Of a stretch of 64,000 nucleotides of DNA, positions 29,184-37,960 are shown piece by piece. Source of the DNA: Paenibacillus sp. MAEPY2. GTDB lineage: Bacteria > Bacillota > Bacilli > Paenibacillales > Paenibacillaceae. The stretch spans positions 248,001 to 312,000 of the forward strand of contig NZ_AWUK01000004.1 of NCBI RefSeq assembly GCF_000499205.1, given 5' to 3'. Under the pieces are notes generated by a model. The model was given only the letters and a program-made list of their open reading frames with translations. It was not told the origin of the DNA and ran no database searches. Position 1 is the first letter of the stretch; each line of letters opens with the position of its first letter. Both the position numbers and the translations under genes were made by a program.

Positions 29184-29408
29184 CTATTTTGCAAAATCAA
29201 CTTTCCGCTCCATCCACTCACTGACCCGTTTGAACTTATCGAGGCATTCGTATAATCGCTGCTCTTAGGGCGTTTGATATAACTCTTTCATACTCATGTA
29301 AAATCCCGCCCTGAAATAGACATCGTAACCCCCAAGTCCTACGTTAAGCAATTCATCCTTAAGCCGCTTGAAACCGATTCTGGAAAAGGTAGACTTAATT
29401 TTAAATGT
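29184..29408 (-). pseudogene. Remnant of a small unknown gene with an in-frame stop
   Basis: The minus strand from 29408 to 29184 reads as protein-like sequence (KSTFSRIGFKRLKDELLNVG, GGYDVYFRAGFYMSMKELYQ), meets one TAA after YQTP, and continues in the same frame as EQRLYECLDKFKRVSEWMER to a final TAG. No good start codon or ribosome site precedes it. It lies in the 486-base gap between the glucosidase and the LuxR-type regulator. I do not recognise the family. Absence of a start and the nonsense codon argue for decay. Confidence 0.45.
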
Positions 29409-29443
29409 TTATTGGGAAAATGGATAGCCAAGGAGGACATCTT

Positions 29444-30205
29444 ATGTCTGCACGAACATCTGCCTTACGAAAGAGCTGGTCCGAGAGCGAACGAGTCGCT
29501 CCCAGTACAGCACATATCCAATATGTAACGAAAGCTAATCTGGACAGGGTTCGCAAAATCAATCATTTTCTGATTAGTGCCTTCCAACAGAGTCTCTCAG
29601 TGATTAAAGAAAATCTGTCCAGCACGTATCTCTTTCTGCTCACCGACTCGCATGGGGTCCTGCTTGCCATGGATTACAGCCATGATTTGGAACAAGTGGT
29701 GAAACAGTCACCCATCCGTCCGGGTATGATCTTTACGGCAAGAAGCTGTGGTGTCAATGCCATATCCGAATCAATGGACACACATGGAGCTGTCCAGCTG
29801 CAACCTGAGCAGCATGAGAACCCTCTTTTTCGTAGCTGGCACTGTTATGCTGCACCTTTATCTGTTGGTCATCAGCATGTCGGCTATCTGGACGTCTCCA
29901 CTATTAATGCGGACATCCAGAGCGAACTGATTGCAATCGCCAAGTTGATCCCGGCTCATATGCAAAATCGTTATCAGTGTAACCTTGCCGCGTCGGTCGA
30001 AGAACATCAATCGGTAGAGTTCACCAAACGCCAGTTAACCATCCTGAAAATGATCTCTAACGGACTAACGGTTAAAGCGATTGCTTTGAAATTGAAAATC
30101 AAGGAATGTACCGTAAATCATCATAAAAAAGTGATTTTTAACAAATTAGGTGTACAATCCAGCACCGAAGCTGTTTCAATTGCCAGCCGTCTGTCTTATC
30201 TATAA
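29444..30205 (+). CDS. GAF-domain LuxR-type regulator
   Basis: 253 residues. The central part (~60-165) resembles the GAF sensor found in AcoR-type sigma-54 activators: YLFLLTDSHGVLLAMDY, ARSCGVNAISESM, HCYAAPLSVGHQHVGYLDVS. The C-terminus (~190-253) is a LuxR/FixJ helix-turn-helix: FTKRQLTILKMISNGLTVKA, LKIKECTVNHHKKVIFNKLG. There is no AAA domain. Its targets are unknown; adjacent genes give no clear hint. AAGGAGGAC lies 7 bases ahead of ATG 29444, so the longer frame from 29405 is rejected. Confidence 0.85.
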   Translation: MSARTSALRKSWSESERVAPSTAHIQYVTKANLDRVRKINHFLISAFQQSLSVIKENLSSTYLFLLTDSHGVLLAMDYSHDLEQVVKQSPIRPGMIFTARSCGVNAISESMDTHGAVQLQPEQHENPLFRSWHCYAAPLSVGHQHVGYLDVSTINADIQSELIAIAKLIPAHMQNRYQCNLAASVEEHQSVEFTKRQLTILKMISNGLTVKAIALKLKIKECTVNHHKKVIFNKLGVQSSTEAVSIASRLSYL

Positions 30206-30318
30206 AGGTACCCCTATAGATTCCTATAGGTGGTAAACACGAACATCTGTGCTAAGCTTTTTAGGTACGCAGGATTAGAGAGAGACAAAGAGAACACACA
30301 CATTTTCAGGAGGGTAAT

Positions 30319-31107
30319 ATGTCTATTCCAAAAAAAGCTTCATTGTTTGCCATGTTGATTATGATTTTGTTGGTTGCTGCAGCTTGCGGCGAAAAAGCGG
30401 ATAACAACGCCAAAACGAATGATTCTACTCCAACAGAAACCACTGCCGGCACAGATACAGACACAGCCAAGACGGAAGATACGGAAAGTACAGAAAGCTC
30501 TGAAGCATCCACTTCCGAGTCCAAGGAAACAGATAACTCCAAAGAGGTTGAATTGGGAACTACGGAAAAAGGCTCTTATAACAATGACTATTTCGGTGTA
30601 TCACTGAAATTCCCGGAAGCTTGGGAGTTCCAGGATGCAGACGGCATGAACGAGCTGACGAGCGCTTCCTCCGAGGCTATTGCTGGAGACGATGAAACGA
30701 AGAAAAAACAAATTGAACTATCTCAGGCCAAAACACTGAACCTGTTGATGGCTTCACAATATCCATTGGATGGAGGACAGGTTGGTCCTTCCGCTATGGC
30801 GATTGCTGAAAAAGTAAGCCTGCTGCAAGGCATTCGCACAGGTAAAGATTATCTGGAAGCTACGAAGAAATTCATGGTGGACAGCCAGTTCCCTTATGAA
30901 TACAAAGAATTTACAACCGAAACCATCGGTGGCAAAGAGATGGACCTGATGCAAATCACGATGGATGCGGGTAATGGTTCAACCATTACGCAAGATTACT
31001 ACAGTACGATTATTGAAGGCTATGCGTTTAACTTCATCTTCACATATCTGGATGACACATCGAAGGCCGAGATCGATACCATTAAGAAATCTGTTCAGTT
31101 CAAGTAA
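30319..31107 (+). CDS. Lipoprotein of unknown function
   Basis: 262 residues. A lipoprotein signal peptide ends at LLVAAACG (lipobox Cys near residue 23), followed by a 55-residue low-complexity linker rich in T, S, E and D, then a globular domain of about 185 residues (GVSLKFPEAWEFQDADGMNE ... MDLMQITMDAGNGSTI ... IDTIKKSVQF) resembling the PsbP-like or DUF-type domains found in many Gram-positive lipoproteins. It would be anchored on the outer face of the membrane. AGGAGGG supports ATG 30319. It stands alone with its own terminator. Confidence 0.8.
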   Translation: MSIPKKASLFAMLIMILLVAAACGEKADNNAKTNDSTPTETTAGTDTDTAKTEDTESTESSEASTSESKETDNSKEVELGTTEKGSYNNDYFGVSLKFPEAWEFQDADGMNELTSASSEAIAGDDETKKKQIELSQAKTLNLLMASQYPLDGGQVGPSAMAIAEKVSLLQGIRTGKDYLEATKKFMVDSQFPYEYKEFTTETIGGKEMDLMQITMDAGNGSTITQDYYSTIIEGYAFNFIFTYLDDTSKAEIDTIKKSVQFK

Positions 31108-31208: not shown

Positions 31209-32960
31209 TTATCCGGAAATCGCCACCCAATGTCCCTCTTTTACTTCCACCCACCTGGACTGCTCCAGATTATAGCGATCTTCTACTTCTACCGTTTCTC
31301 TAGGTGTTTCACTCACAGGATGACGTTTTTTCATCGCCTCCACAGCCGGGTCCGGAACCGGGATGGCCGACAACAATGCCTTTGTGTATGCATGCTGAGG
31401 GTTCGAATAGAGTTCTTCACTTTCTGCTAACTCCACAATCTTCCCGTTATACATGACAGCAACACGATCACTGATATGTTTCACCATGGACAGGTCATGT
31501 GCGATAAACAGGTATGTAAGACCGAGTCGCTGCTGCAACTCTTCAAGCAGCTGTACAATCTGGGCCTGAATGGACACATCCAGCGCAGACAACGGCTCGT
31601 CACATACAATAAATTCAGGTTCCACGGCCAGCGCACGAGCGATTCCGATCCGTTGCCGTTGTCCACCTGAAAATTCATGAGGATAACGCTGGGCATGAGC
31701 CGGATCGAGGCCGACCATCTCCAGCAATTCCTCCACACGCTTTTCCCGTTCAGCGGGACTGCCGGCAAGACCGTGAATATCCAAGGCTTCCCCAATAATG
31801 TCCATGATTCTAAATTTCGGATTAAGCGACGCATACGGGTCCTGGAAAATAATCTGCATATGCCGCCTCATCGTTTTCATCTCTGAGGCAGAAAGGCGAT
31901 TGAGGGGTACTCCCTTAAACAGGACATCCCCACCTGTAGGCTCATGCAGTCGCAGAATGGCTCGACCTGTAGTCGATTTCCCGCTGCCCGATTCGCCCAC
32001 GACCCCAAGTGTCTCCCCCTGGCGAATCTCGAAACTGATATCGTTCACAGCTTTTAAGGTGTTGCCTTTGCCCAGATTAAAATGCTGTCTGAGCGACTTC
32101 ACCTCCAACAGAGGCTGATCATCCTCCAGATCGCGTGGCACCAACGAAACGAGTTTCGGCTTTTTCTTCTCATCTAATCGAGGCAATGCATTTAGCAGTC
32201 TGGATGTATATGGATGCTTTGGATTTGCAAAAATCTCTGTAGTTGTCCCGGATTCCACAATCTGCCCGTCTTTCATGACCACGACCCGATCACACATGCC
32301 TGCCACTACGCCGAGATCATGGGTAATCAGAATAATGGAAGTGCCCAGCCGTGCTTGCATATCTTTCATCAAATTAAGAATTTGGGCCTGAATGGTTACA
32401 TCAAGCGCAGTTGTGGGTTCATCTGCGATCAGCAATTCAGGCCGGCAAGCAAGAGCAATGGCAATCATCACCCGCTGACGCATACCTCCGGAAAATTCAT
32501 GTGGATACTGATTGAAACGTATTTCACTCCGGGTGATACCAACCAGCTCCAGCATGGCGATCGCCTGCTTCTTCGCTTCTCCTCTGGATAGCTTCTGATG
32601 TTTAATCAAACTTTCGGTAATCTGTTTCCCTATTTTAATGGTCGGATTAAGAGAGCTCATAGGGTCCTGAAAGATCATGCCGATGTCACGGCCACGGATG
32701 CTCTCCATCTCTTTTTGCGTTTTATGGACCAGATCTACCCCTTTAAACAGAATCTCACCCTTTTTCATCTGCGAAGGAGGAGATGCAAGCAGTCTCATAA
32801 TGGAACGTGCCGTCACACTCTTCCCACTGCCGGATTCCCCTACAATGCCAAGGGTTTCCCCTTTCCGCACTTCAAAACTGACTTCCTTCACCGCCTGAAA
32901 TTCACTCTCTCCGGAATGAAAAGAAACAGACAACTCATTTACTTTCAGCAAAGGTTGCAA
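31209..32960 (-). CDS. Fused double ATP-binding protein of a peptide-type ABC transporter (OppD-OppF fusion)
   Basis: About 583 residues with two complete nucleotide-binding domains. The first (~1-265) has Walker A GESGSGKSVTA, signature SGGMRQR and Walker B LLIADEPTTALD; the second (~290-550) has GESGSGKSTTG, SGGQRQR and FIVCDEPLSALD. Each resembles OppD and OppF respectively, so one chain powers the permease dimer. TTG 32960 is chosen because GGTGATC, an extended match to the 16S tail, sits just ahead of it; GTG 32990 and ATG 32978 lie upstream in frame. It is divergent from the two permeases and the binding protein with which it probably forms one transporter. Confidence 0.9.
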   Translation of the reverse strand: MQPLLKVNELSVSFHSGESEFQAVKEVSFEVRKGETLGIVGESGSGKSVTARSIMRLLASPPSQMKKGEILFKGVDLVHKTQKEMESIRGRDIGMIFQDPMSSLNPTIKIGKQITESLIKHQKLSRGEAKKQAIAMLELVGITRSEIRFNQYPHEFSGGMRQRVMIAIALACRPELLIADEPTTALDVTIQAQILNLMKDMQARLGTSIILITHDLGVVAGMCDRVVVMKDGQIVESGTTTEIFANPKHPYTSRLLNALPRLDEKKKPKLVSLVPRDLEDDQPLLEVKSLRQHFNLGKGNTLKAVNDISFEIRQGETLGVVGESGSGKSTTGRAILRLHEPTGGDVLFKGVPLNRLSASEMKTMRRHMQIIFQDPYASLNPKFRIMDIIGEALDIHGLAGSPAEREKRVEELLEMVGLDPAHAQRYPHEFSGGQRQRIGIARALAVEPEFIVCDEPLSALDVSIQAQIVQLLEELQQRLGLTYLFIAHDLSMVKHISDRVAVMYNGKIVELAESEELYSNPQHAYTKALLSAIPVPDPAVEAMKKRHPVSETPRETVEVEDRYNLEQSRWVEVKEGHWVAISG

Positions 32961-33019
32961 GTGATCACCAGCCCTCATCCATATTTTCACATGTGCTCAT
33001 ATGTATACTCTTCTATACC

Positions 33020-33048
33020 TTGACAATTGAATAGACTCTAAATAATAT
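33020..33048 (+). promoter_or_regulatory. Sigma-A promoter of the permease operon
   Basis: TTGACA (33020-33025) and TAATAT (33043-33048) are separated by 17 bases and lie about 60 bases upstream of the first permease start. Confidence 0.7.
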
Positions 33049-33106
33049 ATACTATATCAATCGGAATAATGCAATTTAAAATCAAATGAAAGGAGGCTCG
33101 CATGGT

Positions 33107-34549
33107 TTGAATCTTGCAAAAGGCAGCAAAATGTCACAGCTTGTATACACCCTGGGTTTTATTTATGGCAAAATGCTGCTTCATCCCTCCTATCGATATG
33201 TTCTATTTATTCTCGGACTGCCCGTTAATCTGATTGTGCTTCTGGTCTGGCAATCTAGAAAAAAAAAGGATGGCTGGGCCCTGGTTCAACAGGCTGTTGA
33301 GCGTGATATGCTATCCAGTTCTTATCGGGATAAACTTCGCACGGACGTGGAAGAACAGTTGAGGCGTAAACACCGTTTCTTTCAGCAGCAAGTTAGTAAG
33401 GCTGAGTTTGAGCGTCAGACGGAGGAGTGGCTGGAGGAATCCGTTCAGAAGGAGTTAAAGGAACGAACGTTCAGCAAGCTTCAGGAACAGGGGAAACAGC
33501 GCCTGACGATGGCGGATACGTTCCAATCCCTGATTGATAAACCGTGGTTTCTTGCGGCATCGGTTATTCCGGGCTGTCTGATGTACGCCATGATGCTGTT
33601 GTATGGCAATCCTTATCTAAAGTACATATTTGAAAGAATTCTGATGACGGTATTCGTCATCCTGGGTGTAGCTACACTTGTCTTCACCATCTTATACCTG
33701 TCTCCATTCAATCCGGCAGCCAACATTCTCGGAGAGACGGCGACACAGGAACAGATCGCGGCTTTCAACCATGTGTATGGCCTGGATCAGCCCTACCTTG
33801 TCCAACTCTGGAACAATATCAAGGGCATAGCACTGTTTGATCTCGGCAAATCTTTTTCAGGGAATGAAGATGTCACGGCTACGATCGCCAGAAAGTTCCC
33901 AATCACTTTAACACTGGCCGTTATCTCCTTGCTGCTTGCCCTTGTCATTGCATTGCCAATTGGGATTATCTCGGCGATCAAGCCCAATTCACTGTTTGAT
34001 TACACATTCATGTTTATTGCATTGATTGGATTATCGATTCCGAATTTCTGGCAAGGACTTATTTTCATCCTGAATTTCTCGATCAAGCTGCAGTGGCTTC
34101 CCGCTACCTTCAATCCGCAGAACTGGCTCTCTATTATTATGCCAACGATAGTTCTCGGAACCGGATTAACCGCTGCAGTAGCCCGTATGACCCGTTCTTC
34201 CACGCTGGAAGTTATTCATGAGGACTACGTGATGACTGCCCGTGCAAAAGGGTTAAGCGAACGACATGTCATGCTGAAACATGCGGTACGTAATGCATTA
34301 ATTCCAATTGTAACCGTGGTTGGCCTGCAATTCGGAGGCATGCTTGGAGGGGCGGCAGTAACGGAGAAAGTGTTTAATATTAGCGGGCTCGGCAGCTACA
34401 TTGTGGATAAACAATTTATACCCGATATTCCGAGTATTATGGGCGGAGTAGTGTACACAGCGATTACAATCTCCATTATTAATGTGGTGGTAGATCTTCT
34501 CTACGCTTTTATTGACCCGCGGGTACGTTCCAAGATGAAACAATATTAA
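33107..34549 (+). CDS. Peptide-type ABC permease (DppB/OppB-like) with ~170-residue N-terminal extension
   Basis: About 480 residues against ~310 for the family. The C-terminal ~310 residues are a normal OppB-type permease (LMTVFVILGVATLVFTILYL, DLGKSFSG, VARMTRSSTLEVIHEDYVMT, ARAKGLSERHVMLKHAVRNA as the ATPase-contact loop). The extra N-terminus contains a membrane segment (YVLFILGLPVNLIVLLVW), a charged helical stretch of about 100 residues and a second segment (FLAASVIPGCLMYAMMLL). I do not recognise the extension. AAAGGAGGC at 33089-33097 favours TTG 33107 over ATG 33086 or 33131. Ten bases separate it from the second permease. Confidence 0.82.
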   Translation: MNLAKGSKMSQLVYTLGFIYGKMLLHPSYRYVLFILGLPVNLIVLLVWQSRKKKDGWALVQQAVERDMLSSSYRDKLRTDVEEQLRRKHRFFQQQVSKAEFERQTEEWLEESVQKELKERTFSKLQEQGKQRLTMADTFQSLIDKPWFLAASVIPGCLMYAMMLLYGNPYLKYIFERILMTVFVILGVATLVFTILYLSPFNPAANILGETATQEQIAAFNHVYGLDQPYLVQLWNNIKGIALFDLGKSFSGNEDVTATIARKFPITLTLAVISLLLALVIALPIGIISAIKPNSLFDYTFMFIALIGLSIPNFWQGLIFILNFSIKLQWLPATFNPQNWLSIIMPTIVLGTGLTAAVARMTRSSTLEVIHEDYVMTARAKGLSERHVMLKHAVRNALIPIVTVVGLQFGGMLGGAAVTEKVFNISGLGSYIVDKQFIPDIPSIMGGVVYTAITISIINVVVDLLYAFIDPRVRSKMKQY

Positions 34550-34558
34550 AGCAGGTGC

Positions 34559-36076
34559 ATGATGACAAAATCGGGTTCACTTACACAAGAAATGCGTTTT
34601 CGACTTAAGTCTTCACAGGAGTACAGTCAGGCGAGCTTCGCCTGGGTCACTTCCCTTCTCTTGTCGATGTTACTGTTATTCAACATCTATGACTGGAGCC
34701 TCCAGGTGTTCAGGCCATTTCTGCTGACAGCACTCGGAATCTATCTATTTTTCACGCTGGTCCAGAGTGTGCTGACGCTCCGAATTCGGAGAGACCTGAT
34801 TCGGCAGGGCACAATCTCTGTGCTGACTCGCAGACTCGCCTGGGTTCAGCTGCTGGGTATCGTTTCCGGCAATATCTTTATCGTAACGGCCGCTTTTCAC
34901 CTGATCAAAAAGACAAAGAGCATTGAGTATACATTTGCGGTGTATATGCTGCTGACCCAGCTGTTCGTTATTGGGGTCTCGGCACTCAATATATTCAAAC
35001 CGTATGTTGCGGATACGTTTTTGCCAGCCATGGCGGCGCTGCTGTTTATCCTGGTGATTGATTTGGTTGTGCTGTTTATCGTATCCCGATATACCTCAGC
35101 CTCGATCATCCCGCGCTGGATGCTGGGCGTAAGTACGATACTCATCCTGACTTCGGTCACAGGCAATGTGTTCGCACTGCTGCTGGGTATTTCCATCATT
35201 GGACGAATTCGCAGACAGGGTAAACAAAAATCCAACTTCTGGAATGATCTGTGGGAGCGTCTCGCTCCGAATGTCACAGCAATGTCCGGTTTGTTTTTTA
35301 TCATTTTCCTGTTCTCGATATCGATTTGCAGCTTCTTTACTTTTGATTACAGCATGGCTGTAGAAAATAACTACTCGGCCTTGCTTCAGTCCCCATCGCT
35401 CGCCTATCCCTTGGGAACAGATGACTTTGGACGGTGTTTATTTTCCCGGATTGTATTCGGTGCCCGTATATCGTTAATCGTGGGTTTCATGTCAACTCTG
35501 ATTCCGGTATTCATTGGCGGTATTCTCGGAGCATTCTCGGGATTCTATGGAAGACATACAGACAATATTATCATGCGATTGCTGGATATTCTCTATGCCA
35601 TTCCGGGTATTTTGCTCGCTATCGCCATCATTGCGGCGTTCGGGGCCAATACGGTCAATCTTATTCTGGCGCTCAGTCTGGGCTCGATCCCAACCTATGC
35701 ACGAACCATGAGAGCCAGTGTACTCTATGTATCTACTTTTGAATTTGTTGAAGCCGCACGTGCGCTGGGTTACAACAATCGGTCTATTATTTTCAAACAT
35801 ATTATTCCGAACTCACTCGCACCCATGATTATCAAGTCCACGCTCACCATCGGCGGGGCAGTCATCGCCACCAGCAGTTTAAGTTATCTGGGCCTCGGCG
35901 TGGAGCCGCATATTCCTGAGTGGGGCAACATTCTCAAGCTGGGCAGTACGTATCTGGAAACCCATTCGTATCTGGCCATTTATCCAGGTCTGGCAATCAT
36001 TCTGCTCGTACTCTCGTTCAACTTTCTTGGAGACGGACTGCGCGATGCGCTTGATCCAAAGCTGGAAAAGGCGTAA
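34559..36076 (+). CDS. Peptide-type ABC permease (DppC/OppC-like) with long membrane N-terminus
   Basis: 505 residues against ~300 for the family. Residues ~270-505 match an OppC permease (YPLGTDDFGRCLFSRIVFGA, GFYGRHTDNIIMRLLDILYA, TYARTMRASVLYVS, EFVEAARALGYNNRSIIFKH). The first ~240 residues hold about six additional hydrophobic segments (VTSLLLSMLLLFNIYDW, FLLTALGIYLFFTLV, MAALLFILVIDLVVLFIV) before the usual first segment. The extension is not one I recognise. With the extended OppB partner it suggests a transporter with extra membrane parts. Two adjacent ATGs occur at 34559 and 34562. Confidence 0.82.
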   Translation: MMTKSGSLTQEMRFRLKSSQEYSQASFAWVTSLLLSMLLLFNIYDWSLQVFRPFLLTALGIYLFFTLVQSVLTLRIRRDLIRQGTISVLTRRLAWVQLLGIVSGNIFIVTAAFHLIKKTKSIEYTFAVYMLLTQLFVIGVSALNIFKPYVADTFLPAMAALLFILVIDLVVLFIVSRYTSASIIPRWMLGVSTILILTSVTGNVFALLLGISIIGRIRRQGKQKSNFWNDLWERLAPNVTAMSGLFFIIFLFSISICSFFTFDYSMAVENNYSALLQSPSLAYPLGTDDFGRCLFSRIVFGARISLIVGFMSTLIPVFIGGILGAFSGFYGRHTDNIIMRLLDILYAIPGILLAIAIIAAFGANTVNLILALSLGSIPTYARTMRASVLYVSTFEFVEAARALGYNNRSIIFKHIIPNSLAPMIIKSTLTIGGAVIATSSLSYLGLGVEPHIPEWGNILKLGSTYLETHSYLAIYPGLAIILLVLSFNFLGDGLRDALDPKLEKA

Positions 36077-36133
36077 CTTACTGCTTTCAATTCAATTTGA
36101 ACAATAATTATGAACTTATCTGGAGGTATTTTC

Positions 36134-37960
36134 ATGAAAAAACGTACGTTGATCGCACTACTATTGATTCTCGTCCTTGTAATCTCAGGTTGCAATGTGA
36201 AGACCAAGACGGAATCGCAGTCCGAGACTGCGCCATCCGATACATCGGAGAACACGCAAAACCAAAAACCGGTAGACATCGAATTACTGGCTCAGAGCTC
36301 TTCCGAAAATGACGTGAATATTATCCGCGACCAGCTCACCAAGAACGGCTTCAATGTAAAGCTGAATCTGCAGCCGGATTACGGCAGCTACAAATCCCAG
36401 CAGGATGCAGGGAATTATGATATTGCGTTGTCCAGCTGGACAACCGTAACTGGAAACCCGGATTATGCGGTCCGTTCTCTTTTCAAAACGGGTGGGGATT
36501 ACAGCATTCTCGCAGATGAGGAAATCGATAAACTTATTGACCAAGCCGCTACTCAGACTCCGGACGAATACAAGGATACGTATAAACAATTGGAGGACCG
36601 CTTGGTAACGGATCAAGCCTATATCGCTCCGCTGTACATTTCCCTGAAAAGTCAGGCTGTGAACAAAGACATTTTGAATGCAGACACCGTTCGCTTGTCC
36701 AAATCCCGCGCCATGGCATGGGAACCTATTGAATTCAAAGATAGCTCCAAAAATACAAAAGAACCCTTAATTCTGACACAAACCGCTTCCGTCCTGACTT
36801 CCCTTGACCCGATCAAAGGAAACGACGGGTCCATCAACCAATTGAATACCAACATGTATGTACGTCTCGTTAACCTGACAGATGACGATCAGCTCACAGC
36901 AGAGGGATCACTCTCTCACAATTTCAGTATTGCTGAAGGAAACTCGGAGTATTATTTCATTCTCAGAGACGATATCAACTTTGCCAAGATTGATAATAAA
37001 AAGGCTGTAGATACGGGTGAACGAGTCGGCGCAGATGACGTCATCTTCTCTCTCGATCGCGCCAAAAACAAAGATTCCGTACCGGATCACCGGACATACA
37101 GCCTTCACGAACATATCAAGGAGGCCGAGTTGGTAACCGATCTGGGCGCCTTGGAATCCATTCAGCAATCCAGTGGCAGCGGTACGGTTAAAGAAGCATT
37201 GGAACAAGGGCTTGGCACCAAAATTACGGAACTGGTCACGGACAAAAACAAAGCCAATAACGCTGCCGGGAAGTATCAAGTTGTGAAACTCACAACCACC
37301 GAACCTTTCCCGCAAGTATTGAACTATCTGGCTCACCAATCTGCTGGCATTGTATCCAAAAAGCAGGTCGAGAGCATCAATACGTATGATGTAGCTTCGT
37401 TTGACGTGAATAAAGACATTCCTTACGGCGATCAGAATACCGTGACTGAAGGTGCTTCGTACAACAACACCCTGTATGCCAGCGGCCCATATATCTTGGC
37501 ATATAAAAATGATTATGAAGGTGTATTCTATCAGAATCCCGGCTACCGTAAAGGCTCTGAATATGCACCCAAGATTTCTCAGGTGAATGTACGATTCATC
37601 TCGGATGCCGACAGTGCGCTATCTGCTCTTCGTAGTAGCGAAATTCACTTATACTACGGGGTGCCTGAAACGAAATATGACATCATCAAAGGTGACAGCA
37701 AATTGCAATTGCAGAGCATTCCGAGCAATGCGGTTTCCTATCTGCTGTTCAACACTGCCAATCGGGAAGTTGCCAAGAGCAGTGACCTGAGAAAATCCGT
37801 ACTGTACTCCATTAATCAGGATGACATACTGCAGTTCTACAAAAACAATAAACTTAAAGCGTACTCCACAGTAAGCCCACTAGTTCAGACCGGAAATGAA
37901 TTGAAGTCCGATCCGGCAAAAGTGAAAGAATTCTTGAACGCCTATCAGGCTTCCAAGTAA
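36134..37960 (+). CDS. Lipoprotein resembling a circularly permuted family-5 (oligopeptide) binding protein
   Basis: 608 residues with lipobox ISGC at Cys20. The order of parts is unusual. Residues ~46-200 match what is normally the C-terminal part of SBP family 5 (NIIRDQLTKNGFNVKLNL, GNYDIALSSWTTVTGNPDY, EEIDKLIDQAAT, QAYIAPLYISLKSQAV). After a short linker (~201-210), residues ~211-608 match the normal N-terminal and middle parts (SLDPIKGNDGSINQLNTNMY, YYFILRDDINFAKID, GADDVIFSLDRAKN, GPYILAYKNDYEGVFYQNPG, LRKSVLYSINQDD) and stop at DPAKVKEFLNAYQAS, just where the missing end would follow. This reads as a circular permutation with a new signal peptide. GGAGG favours ATG 36134 over the frame start at 36110. 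It would capture peptides or a related ligand for the two permeases. Confidence 0.8.
   Translation: MKKRTLIALLLILVLVISGCNVKTKTESQSETAPSDTSENTQNQKPVDIELLAQSSSENDVNIIRDQLTKNGFNVKLNLQPDYGSYKSQQDAGNYDIALSSWTTVTGNPDYAVRSLFKTGGDYSILADEEIDKLIDQAATQTPDEYKDTYKQLEDRLVTDQAYIAPLYISLKSQAVNKDILNADTVRLSKSRAMAWEPIEFKDSSKNTKEPLILTQTASVLTSLDPIKGNDGSINQLNTNMYVRLVNLTDDDQLTAEGSLSHNFSIAEGNSEYYFILRDDINFAKIDNKKAVDTGERVGADDVIFSLDRAKNKDSVPDHRTYSLHEHIKEAELVTDLGALESIQQSSGSGTVKEALEQGLGTKITELVTDKNKANNAAGKYQVVKLTTTEPFPQVLNYLAHQSAGIVSKKQVESINTYDVASFDVNKDIPYGDQNTVTEGASYNNTLYASGPYILAYKNDYEGVFYQNPGYRKGSEYAPKISQVNVRFISDADSALSALRSSEIHLYYGVPETKYDIIKGDSKLQLQSIPSNAVSYLLFNTANREVAKSSDLRKSVLYSINQDDILQFYKNNKLKAYSTVSPLVQTGNELKSDPAKVKEFLNAYQASK

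Follow-up and report, generated by a model that had tools for sequence, protein, structure and literature searches.

A circularly permuted family-5 substrate-binding lipoprotein of a probable Gis-type importer in Paenibacillus

A circular permutation is almost certainly present in a substrate-binding protein (SBP) encoded in a 64,000-nucleotide stretch of the Paenibacillus sp. MAEPY2 genome (contig NZ_AWUK01000004.1, positions 248,001 to 312,000); this whole stretch is called the window here. The open reading frame (ORF) at 36110-37960 on the forward strand, with its ATG at 36134, encodes a 608-residue lipoprotein that, judged from its sequence, is a member of the family-5 binding proteins by homology and a variant by topology, the part that normally ends the chain standing near its beginning. 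Our best reading as a whole, to which we give a probability of roughly 0.7, is that this protein serves a glutathione importer of the GisD type, with the permuted SBP anchored from lobe II.

Evidence for a circular permutation

Two pieces of the SBP match the normal family-5 fold in exchanged order. The complete protein scores 125.5 bits against PF00496 (SBP_bac_5; curated cut-off 32.4), which makes it a member of that family, with residues 265-602 on profile positions 11-274 of 368; when residues 46-200 are excised and searched alone, protein residues 56-122 match positions 300-366 (E 8.4e-08), at 32.2 bits slightly below the same cut-off. The normal N-to-C order of SBP_bac_5 and the cluster C fold is not kept. 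Scanning the genome with PF00496 gave 17 matches, 15 of which are single stretches in normal order while the other two are the swapped pieces of the window SBP. On a 564-position profile that represents the genome's 15 normal-order paralogues, residues 41-184 occupy positions 398-548 (46.9 bits) and residues 202-603 occupy positions 59-386 (95.4 bits); taken together, they cover the normal fold with no overlap, and no more than 7-11 profile positions are absent at the cut. Profile-profile comparison places residues 46-200 on 371-507 of the normal paralogue L060 (E 1.1e-12) and residues 205-608 on 97-363 (E 7.3e-27). A sequence-only reading of this DNA had proposed that a C-terminal segment, residues 46-200, had moved to directly behind the lipobox, that the ordinary mature start follows from residue 211 and that the chain stops at DPAKVKEFLNAY, where the moved piece would continue. 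These boundaries agree with the profile comparisons within about 10 residues, and the separate alignments it suggested do put the first piece at the C-terminal end of PF00496 and the rest at the N-terminal end.

Rotation of the chain yields one collinear match. When the point of rotation is scanned along the chain, the score of the best single stretch climbs from 95.8 bits to 145.8 bits and levels off for rotated chains that begin at residues 179-204; the homologues P0227, P0245 and P0121 behave like the window SBP, and the gain is no more than 0.5 bit for five normal paralogues scored with profiles from which the paralogue itself was left out. With hhalign, the family profile scores 199.8 over 261 columns in native order and 284.8 over 399 columns when rotated. 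All PDB sequence matches at E <= 0.02 are, by name, family-5 type binding proteins. Using phmmer, residues 242-321, 478-589 and 65-166 pair with E. coli DppA 33-107, 208-319 and 369-474, all three stretches being weak when taken singly; upon rotation the whole-sequence E drops from 1.1e-09 to 8.1e-13 and DppA 208-474 is aligned as one stretch that spans the joined ends, with DppA 33-107 remaining separate. The new chain ends fall after DPEKAKALLKEAG of DppA, at approximately DppA 340-346 (residue count by hand). Since the two pieces tile the normal fold and rotation produces a single collinear match, the protein is read as a circular permutation and not as one with an added domain.

By superposition, residues ~202-608 of the AlphaFold2 model correspond to the opening 320-396 residues of family-5 structures. 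Of the 50 superposition rows listed, all 50 end at SBP residues 605-608; cluster B folds are not among these 50 rows, beyond which there may be further matches. E. coli GsiB (PDB 1uqw) ranks first in Foldseek and joint first in VIA-align. The model of the isolated moved fragment, intended as structural proof, gave weak support. We take residues 46-200 to be the second half of lobe II plus the end of lobe I, and VISGC, ending at C20, to be the lipobox; the predicted local distance difference test score (pLDDT) is below 50 for residues 9-43.

The permuted order is common to a conserved family, which goes beyond what had been proposed from the DNA. Among 320 distinct homologues, taken from the best 120 of 1549, 1445 and 219 matches in three protein searches, all 320 are permuted: 317 by an automatic rule and three (P0019, P0020 and P0188) from their coordinates, these three having been mis-sorted by the rule solely through a match to the signal peptide.

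Two other explanations of the order have to be weighed. The protein could be a complete family-5 SBP to which an extra N-terminal domain was added, and with 608 residues it is indeed longer than the ORFs of 11 of the genome's 15 normal paralogues; however, the match of residues 202-603 ends at profile position 386 of 564, residues 41-184 supply the missing 398-548, the rotated chain is a collinear match 50 bits better, and residues ~202-608 cover solved structures only to residue 320-396. The tiling of both pieces on the normal profile refutes this explanation, which we regard as highly improbable. Even more improbable is an assembly or cloning artefact that joined two genes in the wrong order, for which nothing was found in favour and which is refuted by the order being kept in 320 of 320 listed homologues from many sources, 56 of 58 loci showing it along with the same cluster of genes.

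Relation to GisD and the probable substrate

In Staphylococcus aureus, Gis is described as the high-affinity route for glutathione (GSH) and the sole route for glutathione disulfide (GSSG) (PMC12510641, 2025). According to PMC10355420, gisA is presumed to be divergent from gisBCD-ggt, gis mutants grow poorly on 25 uM GSSG or 50 uM GSH as sole sulfur source and are rescued by more GSH, and the complete system is limited to the S. aureus group, some bacilli being counted as 'nearly complete'.

The homologue P0227, labelled S. aureus and comprising 4289 member sequences, has 591 residues and an 18-residue signal before C19 (LSG-C). The row for SAUSA300_0203 in PMC5020093 reads 18, LSG C, 66, SBP_bac_5, and because the signal length, LSG-C and SBP_bac_5 fit this row we equate P0227 with SAUSA300_0203, so that it is very probably the GisD of GisABCD-Ggt. 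P0227 is permuted as well, residues 36-175 corresponding to 399-545 of the normal-order model and 199-580 to 62-370. The window SBP is homologous to it over the full length (40.7% identity over 612 columns, one clade), and shares with the S. aureus system (SAUSA300_0200-0204; PMC10355420) the permuted order, the divergent gisA layout and the lipobox. A divergent double ATPase, two permeases and the family-5 lipoprotein make the window cluster one of Gis type; identities with the staphylococcal locus L107 are 51% for the ATPase, 47% for each of the permeases B and C (permB, permC) and 39% for the SBP, the permeases being longer in the window (487/505 vs 448/390 aa). In the distant loci L107 and L108 the same cluster is followed, directly after the SBP, by a gamma-glutamyl transpeptidase gene; it was named ggt from its sequence and then served as a query. 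By orthology the substrate of the window SBP is probably glutathione, and the label 'oligopeptide' given in the sequence-only reading probably names the wrong one.

The same class of transporter with a permuted SBP could instead import other substrates, such as oligopeptides, other gamma-glutamyl peptides, or metal-chelate or opine-like compounds, and several observations speak for this and against glutathione. At ~41% identity to S. aureus GisD the substrate could have shifted; ggt is adjacent in only 4 of 112 loci, the staphylococcal L105-L108, with no ggt match in the 64-kb window; NCBIfam ranks SapA and NikA highest for the SBP and puts GsiB fourth, and the permeases score best with Opp2B and Opp4C, none of these models reaching its cut-off; and the database names of homologues, where given, are those of ABC (ATP-binding cassette), peptide or peptide/nickel binding proteins, with the single exception of P0146, whose row begins 'Glutathione-binding protein GsiB precursor'. 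We nonetheless consider another substrate rather unlikely, given that the whole cluster with its double ATPase is common to gis, that WTTVxGxPxY is near invariant across the family, staphylococci included, and that GsiA is the best-scoring NCBIfam model for the ATPase (642.1 bits, under its cut-off of 1077).

Normal-order relatives offer the fold for comparison, although not the pocket. GsiB of the E. coli glutathione importer GsiABCD shares the family-5 fold, but differs in having the normal chain order and a one-direction operon (PMC10355420), and its identity is low, at 17-21%. A literature search on the GsiB structure led to the Gis paper alone. The dipeptide-binding DppA and the glutathione-binding GbpA (PDB 1dpp and 3m8u) likewise share the fold, and the rotated chain is collinear with DppA; both differ in their normal order. 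The DppA loop with R355, the carboxylate-binding arginine (R383 in the title of PDB 8z1z), falls in an alignment gap of the rotated SBP (count by hand). Ligand contacts include D408 of DppA and A380, S430 and D432 of GbpA (PMC3295651), and GbpA 432 probably corresponds to DppA 408. The aspartate is lacking in the window SBP: V105 aligns with DppA D408 (rotated alignment, count by hand) and is invariant, within W102-T-T-V-T-G-N-P-D-Y111, in 314 of 314 aligned members (of 321 sequences, the seven outside 560-650 aa being left out). With neither D408 nor the R355 loop kept, DppA and GbpA cannot serve as templates for assigning the pocket. Both V105 and the gapped loop agree with the remark of Lensmire et al., drawn from sequences, that GisD and GsiB recognise glutathione differently (PMC10355420).

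The preferred reading, a GisD-type glutathione importer, would work as follows. The SBP would be the lipid-anchored binding component of a GisABCD-type ABC importer, in which the ancestral C- and N-termini were presumably joined at approximately residues 184-210 and the chain reopened in lobe II, near DppA 340-346, between what the model predicts to be a helix and a strand. Judged by the topology and by what is generally known of this fold, the lipid anchor and its 25-residue linker would emerge from lobe II, not lobe I, and the cleft for the ligand and both crossings between the lobes would be as usual. If orthology to S. aureus GisD is a guide, the protein would capture GSH, GSSG or a gamma-glutamyl compound closely related to them on the cell's outside and pass it on to the two extended permeases, the double ATPase driving import of a source of sulfur and amino acids.

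Spread of the family and organisation of the gene cluster

Within the family-5 binding proteins the permuted SBPs are an established, conserved subclass. A tree computed after rotation from 20 permuted and 15 normal sequences groups the permuted ones in one clade with support of 100/100, which supports a single origin of the order among the sampled sequences; the normal side consists of the 15 paralogues of the window genome, with long branches, and does not resolve the nearest normal relative. Titles of the locus records name Paenibacillus, Planomicrobium, Planococcus, Shouchella, Jeotgalibaca, Desemzia, Alkalibacterium, Marinilactibacillus, Fundicoccus, Ruoffia, Bacillus and Alkalicoccobacillus, as well as Brevibacillus (a remnant there, full-length in the protein search) and one Tissierellia metagenome-assembled genome; the protein searches add Cytobacillus, Saccharibacillus, Carnobacterium, Staphylococcus, Mammaliicoccus, Kurthia, Oceanobacillus and Viridibacillus. 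The permuted SBP occurs in 53 of 75 genomes of the window's genus (broken and partial copies counted) and in 27 of 299 sampled Bacilli genomes, the window's own included (four candidates scored per genome). Two phylum-wide samples, with three candidates scored per genome, give lower bounds of at least 4 of 398 and at least 4 of 396 genomes; all these positives lie in the window's genus, and one in each sample is the window's own genome.

Several individual records deserve mention. GisD-like proteins are found in S. gallinarum, S. warneri and Mammaliicoccus (P0234, P0240 and P0256), beyond the S. aureus group of PMC10355420, and a 362-kb plasmid of Metabacillus dongyingensis carries a GisD-like gene (NZ_OK052578.1:187589-189328) whose product is 41% identical to P0227 over 97%. 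P0229, P0230 and P0231 are 873-aa S. aureus-type proteins in which a permease domain is fused to a GisD-like protein without signal peptide; in two of these fusions the join lies at an FLG stretch, which also occurs within the intact GisD-like protein, and it looks as after a deletion between short repeats. P0005 (92% identical) and P0043 (98% over 55% of the query) are filed, between them, under a chytrid and Phytophthora kernoviae, most likely through bacterial contamination of these assemblies.

The order ATPase, permB, permC, permuted SBP is found in 56 of 58 loci, counting the split frames of L020, L035 and L043 as present, with the ATPase on the opposite strand in 55 of the 56 complete loci; the exception, L039 (Alkalibacterium gilvum), has it codirectional with the rest. 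The two remaining loci, L055 and L056, keep just a C-terminal remnant of the SBP. In Paenibacillus sp. OK003 (L055:7784-8688) about 4.2 kb is gone between the start of permB and SBP residue ~394, leaving the ATPase and the remnant, and in Brevibacillus parabrevis NRS 605 (L056:8019-8666) no more than the C-terminal SBP remnant occurs at this place. Split frames of the SBP, a permease or the ATPase occur in L035, L112, L043, L111 and L020; several neighbouring genes being split in L043 and L111 suggests sequencing errors.

Both permeases carry N-terminal extensions in which no Pfam family scores above cut-off; the hydrophobic segments in Table 1 come from a simple hydropathy scan. A 170-aa query from permB detects this extension in 23 of the 299 genomes sampled from the class, each of which also belongs to the 27 that encode a permuted SBP. 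Four genomes (G495, G722, G604 and G635) have the SBP and no permB-extension match at 1e-5; in G495 and G722, read as L107 and L108, permB is extended but diverged (448 and 446 aa). Where unbroken, permC ranges from ~390 to 507 aa. The permease extension and the permuted SBP thus travel together, as is expected of one gene cluster and without a functional link being thereby shown.

Table 1. Features of the permuted SBP and its gene cluster (window positions)
Feature	Position	Strand	Evidence
Permuted family-5 substrate-binding lipoprotein (GisD-type), 608 aa	36134..37960	+	Profile, rotation and homologue evidence
Lipoprotein signal peptide, putative lipobox VISG-C (C20)	36134..36193	+	Sequence
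Linker, residues 21-45	36194..36268	+	Low AlphaFold2 model confidence
Residues 46-200, ancestral C-terminal part, now N-terminal	36269..36733	+	phmmer, Pfam, profile and profile-profile matches; structural support weak
WTTVTGNPDY, residues 102-111, at DppA ligand-loop position	36437..36466	+	Rotated alignment to DppA, family alignment
Residues 184-210, junction of ancestral C- and N-termini	36683..36763	+	Profile tiling, rotation scan
Residues 211-608, ancestral N-terminal part (lobe I and first half of lobe II)	36764..37957	+	Pfam, profiles, structure superposition
Fused double ATPase (GisA-type), divergent	31209..32990	-	Profile searches, locus comparison
Divergent intergenic region ATPase/permease, 95 bases	32991..33085	.	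No Rfam family at gathering score
DppB/GsiC-like permease (GisB-type), 487 aa	33086..34549	+	Profile searches, locus comparison
permB N-terminal extension, ~175 aa, two hydrophobic segments	33086..33610	+	Pfam test (first 170 aa), hydropathy scan
DppC/E. coli GsiD-like permease (GisC-type), 505 aa	34559..36076	+	Profile searches, locus comparison
permC N-terminal extension, ~225 aa, several hydrophobic segments	34559..35233	+	Pfam test, hydropathy scan

The true start of the ATPase is probably 5-14 codons inside the listed ORF. Beside the cluster, at 29405-31107, lie genes for a LuxR-type regulator and a small lipoprotein, which among the 58 loci are matched only in Paenibacillus loci with an SBP at least 87% identical. 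Rfam gives nothing in the 64-kb window at gathering threshold. A PADLOC match in the window (13.7 bits) was taken as chance, and matches to DUF4576 (SBP) and to YpeD-like and Per1 (permease extensions), under curated cut-offs, were ignored.

Significance of the permuted topology

Family-5 binding proteins presumably belong to another structural cluster than cluster B, that of TpMglB-2 (Tp0684) of Treponema pallidum. The latter, termed 'Type Ic / Cluster Bc', resembles the window SBP in being a natural, lipid-anchored ABC binding protein that is circularly permuted and has its two ends in the same lobe; it differs in cluster, in its ligand glucose and in the cut, and is presumably a separate permutation event. 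Its authors speculate that a permuted topology suits membrane anchoring (PMC4990184). A full-text literature search, read at the level of titles and the starts of abstracts and with most subscription journals outside its coverage, returned no report of a family-5 circular permutation, and the word stem 'permut' is absent from the main text of two Gis papers (PMC10355420, PMC12510641). As far as this search shows, the present case would be the first circular permutation described among the family-5 binding proteins for peptides, nickel and glutathione.

Tentatively, the permutation may be functional, with the lobe II anchor having co-evolved with the extended permeases to form a distinct importer subclass ('cluster Cc') of different docking and tethering geometry; we think this possible rather than likely. 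As far as we found, S. aureus Gis is the sole member of such a 'cluster Cc' to have been studied. The family offers a natural test of whether anchor position is tied to the docking face of a binding protein. The permuted order is a clear marker for the Gis family, and may explain why GisD and GsiB look so unlike in ordinary linear comparison and why the complete Gis system was thought to be limited to a few staphylococci.
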